DNA of 32,637 bases from Pseudomonadota bacterium (lineage in GTDB: Bacteria; Pseudomonadota; Gammaproteobacteria; Burkholderiales; Chitinibacteraceae), in assembly GCA_026399755.1 (NCBI GenBank), contig JAPLQI010000023.1, forward strand, positions 1 to 32,637. Reading direction: 5' to 3'. The notes below the pieces were generated by a model that worked only from the letters and a program-made list of their open reading frames with translations, was not told the origin of the DNA and ran no database searches. A program made the translations under genes and the position numbers. Positions 7,526 through 16,582 of this stretch are shown piece by piece (the first letter of the stretch is position 1; each line of letters starts with the position of its first letter).

Positions 7526-7588
7526 ATCGACTATCGACCCAAAAAAACATGCTAGTCTCGCCTGCCTTACTCCTCACTCACCATACTC

Positions 7589-8492: not shown

Positions 8493-8560
8493 AAAAACCC
8501 AAACCTTTAACCCTCGATCCCACTGAGGACACAGAGTTACACGGAGAAAACCAAGAGAAA
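8490..8560. repeat. Copy of a CACGGAGAAAAC-type intergenic repeat (single arm)
   Basis: The block from AAACCCAAACCTT through GGACACAGAGTTACACGGAG to AAAACCAAGAG matches, in reverse orientation, one arm of the palindromic repeat between aceA and aceB (16458-16582), with few mismatches. Only one arm is present here. Confidence 0.7.
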
Positions 8561-8744: not shown

Positions 8745-9872
8745 TTACGAAGCAAAGAAGTCTTTCACTTTATCCATAAACGACTTAGCCCGTGGATTGT
8801 GCTTGTCTGAATCGCCTTGGCTGATTTCTTCAAACTCTTTCAGCAGCTCTTTCTGACGCGCAGTCAGTTTCACTGGCGTTTCCAAAATCACATGGCACAT
8901 CAAATCGCCGGTGATCGCACTACGAACGCCTTTAATCCCCTTGCTACGCAGGCGGAATTGCTGGCCGCTTTGTGTTTCAGCCGGAATCGTAATGCGTGCT
9001 TTGCCATCCAGTGTCGGGATTTCAATCTCGCCGCCCAAGGCCGCGATGGTAAAGCTGATCGGCATTTCGCAATGCAGATCGTTGCCATCACGCTGGAACA
9101 CCGAATGCGCTTTCACATGGATCACAACGTATAGATCACCCGATGGGCCGCCATTCACGCCGGCTTCGCCTTCGCCGCTTAAGCGAATACGATCGCCTTC
9201 ATCCACGCCAGAAGGAATCTTCACTGCTAGCGTTTTATGCGTATTTACGCGGCCAGTGCCGGAACACGGGCGACATGGATCAGGAATATATTTGCCGCTG
9301 CCGTGGCAGGTTGGACAAGTTTGTTGCAGGCTAAAGAAGCCTTGCGAAACGCGAACTTGGCCGTGGCCGCCGCAGGTGTGGCAAGTTTTGGCTTGCGTGC
9401 CTGCTTTGGCTCCGCTGCCGTGGCAGCTGCCGCACTCTTCGTGCGATGGAATCTTGATCTGGCGCTCTACACCACGCGCCGCTTCTTCAAGGCTGATTTC
9501 TAAGTTGTAACGCAGATCAGCACCACGATAGACGTTAGAGCGCCCACCACGACCACCGCCACCTGCCGCGCCAAAGATATCGCCAAAGATATCAGAGAAA
9601 GCGTCACCAAAGCCTGCACCGCCGCCACCGCCCATGCCTGATTGCTGATCAAGGCCTGCATGGCCGTATTGATCATAAGCAGCGCGCTTCTGTGCATCGG
9701 ATAAGACTTCGTAGGCTTCTTTGCCTTCCTTGAACTTATCTTCCGCATCTTTACTATCTGGATTGCGGTCTGGGTGATATTTCATCGCCAGTTTGCGATA
9801 CGCTTTTTTAATTTCGTCGTCATCCGCATCGCGGTTCACGCCTAGCGTGTCGTATAAATCTTTTTTAGCCAT
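8745..9872 (-). CDS. dnaJ: Chaperone protein DnaJ (Hsp40)
   Basis: DnaJ delivers unfolded clients to DnaK and stimulates its ATPase. The 375-residue protein has all type I domains: a J domain (1-70) with the HPD motif, a Gly/Phe-rich linker (about 75-115), four zinc-finger CxxCxGxG repeats ([32 protein letters not shown]; about 140-210), and the C-terminal client-binding and dimerisation domains. The start is the ATG before AKKDLYD, with AGGAT 8 bp upstream; a longer frame adds 18 residues unlike the family. It has a sigma-32-like promoter of its own. It is separated from dnaK by a chemoreceptor gene on the other strand, so it is not co-transcribed with dnaK. Confidence 0.97.
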
Positions 9873-9923
9873 CTTTTTAATCCTGCACAGCAGGCTGCGC
9901 CCTGAATTCATCAACGGATTGCA

Positions 9924-9951
9924 CATTGGGGCGAAGTCTTCAATCTACAAG
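9924..9951 (-). promoter_or_regulatory. Sigma-32-like heat-shock promoter of dnaJ
   Basis: On the minus strand CTTGTA (9946-9951) and CCCCAATG (9924-9931) are separated by 14 bp, close to the CTTGAA/CCCCATNT consensus. It lies about 50 bp before the dnaJ start and has the same spacing as the grpE and dnaK promoters. Confidence 0.55.
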
Positions 9952-11887: not shown

Positions 11888-11908
11888 CATTTAAATAAGC
11901 TAGCAGCC

Positions 11909-12058
11909 TGTCGGACTTAAGACTGATCTACTGCGGAAAAGCCGGATTTGGCCAGCTTTCACGCATTTTCTCGTTGAATAGCCAGCTATTCGCCTCAAAA
12001 ATCCGTGAAAGCTGACTCAAACCGGACTTCTCCTCGCAACGATCGCTTAAGTCCGACA
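11909..12058. mobile_element. 150-bp nested palindrome, MITE-like element
   Basis: The element is bounded by perfect 13-bp inverted repeats (TGTCGGACTTAAG at 11909-11921; complement at 12046-12058). Inside are an 11-bp pair (CAGCTTTCACG 11953-11963 with CGTGAAAGCTG 12004-12014), a partial CCGG-containing pair and a tip hairpin GAATAG/CTATTC (11976-11991). It has no coding capacity. This is the form of a miniature inverted-repeat element or a large REP-type unit. It sits between the dnaK stop codon and its terminator. No clear target duplication is visible. Confidence 0.65.
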
Positions 12059-12069
12059 AGCTACGGGGC

Positions 12070-13964
12070 TTATTTATCTTTTACTTCGGTGAATTCAGCA
12101 TCAACCACATTGCCGTCATCTTTCTTGGCTTCAGCTTCAGGGCCAGCACCTGCGGCCGCGCCTGCTGCAGCACCGTCGGTTGGTTGAGCGTACATTTGCT
12201 CAGCTAACTTGTGTGATGCTTCGGTCAGGGTTGCTGTTGCCGCTTCAATTTTTTCTTTGTCGTCAGAGTGGTCTTTCAGTACCAGCTCAACTTCGGCCAT
12301 AGCAGCTTCGATTTTGGCTTTTTCGTCTGCACCAATTTTTTCGCCAAATTCAGCCAGTGATTTTTTAACTGAGTGAACCATGCCGTCAGCTTGGTTGCGA
12401 GCCGCTACTAATTCGGACAATTTCTTGTCTTCTTCAGCATTCATTTCTGCATCGCGAACCATCGCTTCGATTTCAGCTTCGGACAAACCGCTAGAAGCTT
12501 GAATACGTGCAAGATACCGTTAGCATCAATATCAAAAGTCACTTCAACTTGTGGCACACCGCGTGCTGCTGGCGGGATATCGCCCAAGTTAAATTGGCCA
12601 AGGCTCTTGTTTGCAGATGCTTTTTCGCGCTCACCTTGCAATACATGGATGGTCACTGCAGTTTGGTTGTCTTCTGCTGTCGAGAATACTTGCGATGCCT
12701 TTGTAGGGATCGTGGTGTTTTTCTTGATCAGCTTTGTCAAGATGCCGCCCATGGTTTCAATACCTAGGGACAACGGTGTTACATCCAGCAGCAATACGTC
12801 AGTACGATCCCCTGACAATACTGAGCCTTGCAGAGCAGCGCCAACAGCAACCGCTTCGTCTGGATTCACATCGCGACGCGCTTCTTTACCGAAGAATTCT
12901 TTAACTTTATCTTGCACCATAGGCATACGGGTCTGACCGCCAACCAAGATAATGTCATCGATATCAGTAATTTTCAGGCCAGCGTCTTGCAGAGCAATGC
13001 GGCAAGGCTCGATGGTGCGTGCTACTAAATCTTCAACCAAGCTTTCGTACTTAGCACGGGTGATTTTCAGTGTTAAGTGCTTAGGACCTGTTGCATCCAT
13101 GGTCACGTAAGGCAGGTTGATTTCTGTAGTTGTCGTAGAAGACAGCTCAATCTTGGCTTTTTCTGCCGCTTCTTTCAGGCGTTGCAGCGCCATCACATCT
13201 TGTTTCAGATTGATGCCGGTGTCTTTCTTGAATTCGTCGATGATGAAATCAATGATGCGTTGATCGAAATCTTCACCACCCAAGAATGTATCGCCGTTTG
13301 TAGCCAACACTTCAAATTGCTTGTCGCCGTCTACATCGGCAATTTCGATAATCGAAACGTCGAATGTACCGCCACCCAAATCGTAAACAACGATCTTGCT
13401 GTCGCCTTTTTCGTGCTTGTCCATACCAAAGGCAAGCGCAGCAGCGGTTGGCTCATTGATAATGCGCTTTACATCGAGGCCAGCAATACGGCCAGCGTCT
13501 TTAGTCGCTTGGCGTTGTGCATCGTTAAAGTAAGCAGGAACAGTCACAACCGCTTCGGTTACTTCTTCGCCGAGGTAGTCTTCAGCGGTTTTTTTCATTT
13601 TGCGTAGTACTTCTGCGGAGATTTGCGGTGGCGCCATTTTTTTGTCGCGAACCGAGATCCATGCGTCACCGTTGTCGGCTTTAACGATGGAGAAAGGCAT
13701 CAAGTCGATGTCTTTTTGTACTTCTTTATCTTCAAACTTGCGGCCGATCAAACGCTTTACCGCGTACAAAGTATTTTTTGGGTTTGTTACAGCCTGGCGC
13801 TTAGCCGGCGCACCAACCAGAATCTCACCATCTTCTTGGTAAGCAATAATGGAAGGCGTAGTACGTGTACCTTCTGCGTTTTCAATTACCTTAGGCTGAC
13901 CGTTTTCAAATACGGCCACACAAGAATTTGTTGTACCTAAGTCAATACCAATCATCTTTGCCAT
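12070..13964 (-). pseudogene. dnaK: Chaperone protein DnaK (Hsp70), interrupted by an out-of-frame deletion
   Basis: DnaK is the ATP-driven Hsp70 chaperone. The first 487 codons are intact: nucleotide-binding domain with [29 protein letters not shown] and [10 protein letters not shown], then the beta-sandwich substrate domain to ANGILHV. Normal DnaK continues with about 14 residues like SAKDKATGKENKIT. Here these are missing and the frame changes at about 12502-12506. The first frame then runs 20 unrelated residues to a stop, while the lid domain and acidic tail (ending [12 protein letters not shown]) continue in the other frame to 12070. The two parts total 631 residues; adding 14 restores the usual 640-645, so the lesion equals a loss of about 43 bp. 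It could be a true mutation or an assembly error; an intact second copy may exist elsewhere. Confidence 0.93.
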
Positions 13965-14096: not shown

Positions 14097-14624
14097 TTAC
14101 TTCGCTGCTGCAACCATCACCATCGCAGGGCGAATCACGCGGCCGGCTAGCTCGTAGCCTTTTTGCATGACTTGCACGACGGTATTGGCTTCTGCATCAC
14201 TTGGCACCATTGCAATCGCTTGGTGCTTGTGCGGATCTAATTTGTCACCCATTGGGTTGATTTCAAGTAAATGGGATTTTTCAAATGCAGCAACTAGCTG
14301 TTTTAAAGTGAGTTCAACGCCGTTTTTCAGCGCTTCTACCTCACCAGTCTGATCAGCCAGCGCCATTTCTAGTGAATCTTTTACGGCCAACAGCTCAATA
14401 GCAAATTTCTCAACCGCAAATTTGCGGGCTTTGTCGACTTCTTCAAGCGAGCGTCGGCGATTATTTTCGGCTTCGGCCTTGGCATAGAGCACGTCTTGAC
14501 GGGCTTTTTCAATATCTAAAGCAGCAGCAGCCAATTGCTCTTCCAGCGAATTTTCGGTGCTTTCAACGACAGCCTCAACGGCTGCATCTAGATTGGTCTG
14601 CTCTTGTACGTTTTCATTACTCAT
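14097..14624 (-). CDS. grpE: Nucleotide exchange factor GrpE
   Basis: GrpE releases ADP from DnaK and so completes the Hsp70 cycle. The 175-residue protein has an acidic N-terminus, a long coiled-coil helix (about 30-95, with [19 protein letters not shown]) and the C-terminal beta domain carrying the signature ([14 protein letters not shown] to [17 protein letters not shown]). The length is usual (about 170-200). The ATG has GGAG 8 bp upstream. It precedes dnaK on the same strand by 132 bp, and a near-consensus sigma-32 promoter lies just upstream. Confidence 0.97.
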
Positions 14625-16457: not shown

Positions 16458-16582
16458 AAAACCCAAGTCTTAAAACACGGAGATAAGGAGAACACGGAGA
16501 ACCACGGAGAAAACATCTATCCTTGGTTTTCTCCGTGAAACTCTGTGTCCTCCGTGCCCTCTGTGTTTCAAGGTTTGGGTTT
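16458..16582. repeat. Palindromic CACGGAGAAAAC-type intergenic repeat between aceA and aceB
   Basis: A central perfect 12-bp inverted repeat (CACGGAGAAAAC at 16503-16514; GTTTTCTCCGTG at 16526-16537) is surrounded by further imperfect complementarity to outer AAACCCAA and TTGGGTTT. The left arm contains repeated ACACGGAGA words. One arm recurs at 8490-8560. The hairpin could act as a partial terminator or mRNA stabiliser between the two glyoxylate genes. Confidence 0.8.

Follow-up and report, generated by a model that had tools for sequence, protein, structure and literature searches.

The window analysed here is a stretch of 32,637 bp that corresponds, end to end, to contig C31 of a draft genome (G000) of 4,946,219 bases (4.95 Mb) in 145 contigs, for which a completeness of 100% and a contamination of 1.47% are listed. 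We refer to this genome as Iodobacter-like because of the GrpE identities to its closest named relatives, namely 97% to a MAG labelled Janthinobacterium and 93, 92 and 81% to three Iodobacter records. The window carries dnaK on the minus strand, with grpE and dnaJ nearby (Table 1). Both partner genes had been described as intact in an earlier note made from the sequence, and both produce family matches above the respective cut-offs. Because its family match opens only at residue 19, dnaJ probably starts at about 9,872 rather than at the start of the listed ORF.

Table 1. Features of the dnaK region in the window
Feature	Coordinates	Strand	Basis
dnaJ, intact (listed ORF)	8745..9926	-	NF008035, 598.5 bits against a cut-off of 338
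dnaK 3' part, in a different frame (last portion of the beta domain, then lid and C-terminal tail)	12070..12507	-	NF001413, profile positions 492-624
20 foreign codons and stop, first frame past the break	12441..12503	-	ORF list; last residue matched by the profiles is 487 or 488
Junction lacking the 43 bp of relatives; its placement can vary by up to 2 nt	12503..12507	-	Alignments
dnaK 5' part, 487 native residues: ATPase domain, linker and most of the substrate-binding beta domain	12504..13964	-	TIGR02350
grpE, intact	14097..14624	-	NF010737, 224.4 bits against a cut-off of 164

The first frame of dnaK is an ORF of 507 aa (13964..12441) that matches DnaK up to residue 487 and then runs through 20 foreign residues into a stop; the rest of DnaK is read in a different frame, down to position 12,070. 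An ATPase-domain family match above the curated cut-off is present (TIGR02350 profile positions 1-477, 834.1 bits against 822.55), and this 5' part is 99% identical to the DnaK of the sister genome G005. No uninterrupted frame spans the beta domain, lid and tail, the frame breaking after residue 487, and no start codon of its own could be supported for the 3' part. Alignment with eight genomes of the same genus showed that exactly 43 bp are absent, out of frame, around 12,503-12,507 of the plus strand, and with them about 14 DnaK residues; the comparison with G005 gives three equivalent break points. The earlier note, which had reported two DnaK halves in different frames, an out-of-frame deletion of about 43 bp and the loss of about 14 conserved residues of the beta domain, was thus accurate in each of these respects. 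The pattern is not due to chance. When the gene is aligned with E. coli DnaK chains, the break falls directly after GILHV, a position that we take to lie within the substrate-binding beta domain, ahead of the helical lid. The domain order is that given in the accessible text of PMC8215388.

Compared with the bacterial Hsp70 DnaK family (NF001413 / TIGR02350), which residues 1-487 and the C-terminal part of the G000 gene match, this gene differs in that it is not one open frame and lacks 43 bp of the beta domain. The predicted product consists of 487 native and 20 foreign residues; it stops short of completing the beta domain and has no lid, in line with the truncated protein that the earlier note had proposed. 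We estimate its mass at about 55 kDa, against about 70 kDa for a whole DnaK. If the break is real, the cell would make a protein in which the ATPase domain is kept but the substrate-binding domain is incomplete. Salmonella dnaK14, a laboratory transposon truncation after residue 564, likewise encodes a DnaK that is shortened at its C-terminus and has its ATPase domain whole; however, according to the available portion of the source, dnaK14 retains the beta domain together with some of the lid, whereas the break in G000 is inside the beta domain (PMC10994381). In literature searches on truncated dnaK, dnaK nulls, rpsU and Iodobacter genomes, no title or abstract opening among the matches listed named a natural dnaK deletion in Iodobacter.

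In the comparison with relatives, which the earlier note had called for, a dnaK match was found in 37 of the 40 relatives searched, and 29 of these loci were fetched and read, 28 of them through a pattern search and one (L023), missed by the pattern, separately. All 29 loci contain the missing stretch within an uninterrupted frame, and none of them shows the split of the G000 gene. The same junction produced no match in other species in genome_contigs, a collection from which the genome of the window may itself be excluded. To estimate how often dnaK is broken, a sample of 150 genomes of the order, G000 included, was searched; 137 (among them G000 and G074) yielded a dnaK match above the family cut-off. 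The 14 genomes listed without an ordinary full-length match were rechecked: in G074 and G114 the pieces lie together on one contig and match different parts of the profile; the match in G168 is full-length but diverged; and the other 11 show either partial pieces on other contigs or nothing beyond HscA-like and weaker matches. Altogether, dnaK is in pieces on one contig in 3 of the 150 genomes (G000, G074 and G114). As in G000, the family match in G074 (contig C47, 7,054-8,857) and G114 (contig C1, 1,210,672-1,212,458) is split between frames within the contig, but at other places; the G114 gene is in several pieces and that of G074 in two, with profile ranges overlapping near positions 75-91, in contrast to the single 43-bp loss of G000.

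Several repeats were observed in these alignments. In Iodobacter violaceini (L039, 7,555-7,769) there are three successive alignments of the grpE 3' end, and in L038 the grpE match is also longer than usual near 7,555; the alignments indicate repeated copies of the grpE end in both. The intergenic segment that adjoins dnaK in the window (11,900-12,062) has a 93% identical copy in the genome G002, but at a different place, near grpE (L037, 6,800-6,962), and is probably a dispersed repeat. Two further intergenic segments of the window, 8,494-8,557 and 16,458-16,582, both match one single place in L038, and likewise in L040, as expected of another dispersed repeat.

A second full-length dnaK, which the earlier note had suggested looking for, was not found in the Hsp70-family search of G000: one canonical dnaK was found, and the remaining matches are HscA, MreB and a PRK11678 protein below its cut-off, which we take to be YegD-like. 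What remains of the gene shows no sign of decay, with 0 unique changes in residues 1-486 relative to the eight sister genomes, although a very recent loss would look alike. The rpoH gene is intact and encodes a protein with a single unique Q-to-H change near the N-terminus; some sister genomes have more unique substitutions than G000, so that the sequence offers no clear sign of a suppressor.

To put the dnaK gap in context, G000 was compared with G005 over sampled stretches (1.12 Mb of G000 against 1.08 Mb of G005, under one quarter of the genome). The gene-level scan of 342 orthologue-like G005 genes returned 14 flagged rows in G000, of which seven were examined and three kept as out-of-frame losses inside the coding part: dnaK (-43), an alcohol dehydrogenase gene (-79) and a NUDIX-type gene (-13). 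The labels iron-type alcohol dehydrogenase and NUDIX-type reflect our own recognition of the proteins, not a family search. The alcohol dehydrogenase gene (contig C1, 124-1,202; L142) is whole in all five sister genomes searched; the 13 bp of the NUDIX-type gene (contig C12, about 49,322; L283) are absent relative to G005. Two rows, -35 on C63 and -1 on C37, were dropped from the count of broken genes, both lying ahead of the gene start, and the -8 row on C10 was dropped as well, the gene being frame-split in G005 itself. Also outside the kept count are two rows on C120 (+271, a 28-residue N-terminal piece, and +14, an ORF of 114 aa) and six rows with in-frame stops, one of which (C120, stop at 67) was examined and gave no clear reading.

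A loss similar to that in dnaK was detected, within these sampled stretches, in another core gene. The DNA-level scan, as opposed to the gene scan, revealed a 41-bp out-of-frame loss in rpsU, encoding ribosomal protein S21 (contig C12, 16,902-17,034; L261, L262), between flanks that are 100% and 97% identical to G005. The gene yields two half-matches and is the only copy found in G000, whereas rpsU is whole, with a single match above the cut-off, in all 12 relatives searched, and the S21 protein is identical across all eight sister genomes. According to the accessible text of PMC9578407, rpsU of E. coli has so far resisted targeted deletion, and bS21 is absent from many clades and therefore not universally essential.

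The reverse scan gave a different picture: 337 genes produced eight rows in G005, seven of them 1-bp shifts and the eighth the 13-bp site again, viewed in the opposite direction. One of the shifts splits rpoS of G005 (contig C1, about 4,352,300; L180), and six other sampled genes have 1-bp shifts as well, which suggests base errors in G005 or real mutants. Gaps of at least 10 bp with good flanks, counted irrespective of coding status, are about equally frequent, numbering 12 in G000 against 10 in G005, and no general excess of long gaps was found in G000 over its sister genome. The one-sidedness is limited to out-of-frame coding losses at four sites in all, and the alcohol dehydrogenase and NUDIX-type genes among them might be natural pseudogenes.

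From the gap as observed, the gap-free loci read in relatives and the other losses present in G000, we infer that the losses are errors. The 43-bp gap is most probably a fault of the draft assembly or consensus, and the organism itself probably has an intact dnaK. A short stretch would have been dropped during the making of the contig sequence, and the same kind of loss would have affected rpsU, the alcohol dehydrogenase gene and perhaps the NUDIX-type gene. An error is favoured over two independent real losses survived by a free-living strain because clean losses of 43 and 41 bp occur in two core genes of one draft. The result of the reverse scan and the intact state of grpE, dnaJ and rpoH point the same way; counted on the other side are the roughly equal frequency of long gaps in both genomes, the fact that the one-sidedness comes from four sites and the fact that no cause was found. 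The statement of the earlier note that dnaK is broken accordingly holds for the record but, given the rpsU loss and the lack of decay, is probably untrue of the organism. Of the two possibilities it had left, a real loss implying a second copy or an unusual heat-shock state, or a wrong sequence, the latter is favoured because no second dnaK and no decay were found and because there is a similar loss in rpsU and two more in the sampled genes.

Several candidate causes of the losses were considered and rejected. A chimeric join is not supported: along the contig, the identity to five relatives varies as a mosaic and does not change in a clean step at the dnaK junction. Loss at sequence shared between strains is not supported either: relative to the eight sister genomes, 67% of the dnaK windows and 53% of the windows surrounding the rpsU site are as conserved as the lost stretch or more, and neither lost stretch is unusually conserved. 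With z-scores computed against mononucleotide shuffles, folding is ordinary at three of the four loss sites (-0.55 for dnaK, -0.59 for rpsU and 0.03 for alcohol dehydrogenase), the exception being the 13-bp site (-2.12), and hairpins were dismissed as the cause. So was base composition, the G+C content of the lost stretches (0.49-0.56) being ordinary at all four sites. The draft otherwise seems accurate at the single-base level.

The main competitor of an assembly or consensus error is a real, recent deletion in the strain, which would leave it with a 507-residue DnaK devoid of the lid and living without a fully working DnaK. The clean junction in an otherwise undamaged gene is what a recent event would give, and the single RpoH substitution could be counted in its favour. 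Moreover, a viable strain would not by itself rule out a real cut because, as far as the available parts of the two sources go, E. coli dnaK deletion strains grow at 20 to 35 C and gain rpoH suppressors (PMC8215388), and the Salmonella DnaK cut far downstream, after residue 564, supports wild-type growth in LB (PMC10994381). Against this stand the comparable losses in rpsU and two further G000 genes, the failure to find any other canonical DnaK in the genome, and an RpoH that is whole and in which the one substitution is no clear suppressor. We therefore consider a real deletion unlikely. Still less probable is a mixed population, in which the deletion is carried by part of the cells, or the consensus was taken from a minority variant, most cells being intact: such a mixture would account for a clean junction with viability kept, yet no second version of the dnaK region was found on another contig, and the rpsU loss would need a second event of this kind. 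That the split gene works, its two parts being made separately or joined through unusual translation, is hardly credible despite the conserved sequence of both parts, given that about 14 beta-domain residues would still be absent, that none of the 29 loci of relatives shares the split and that, of the 150 genomes of the order, the only others with the gene in such pieces, G074 and G114, are broken elsewhere.

If the gap is, as we favour, an error of the record, a draft listed as 100% complete can hide clean losses of tens of bases in core genes, and claims of gene loss drawn from such drafts therefore need reads. The converse, a free-living betaproteobacterium that truly lacks both a lid-bearing DnaK and S21, with altered translation initiation perhaps easing the folding load, appears very improbable. 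Were it real, such a combined loss in a single free-living strain would come as a great surprise and could be put to a direct test.
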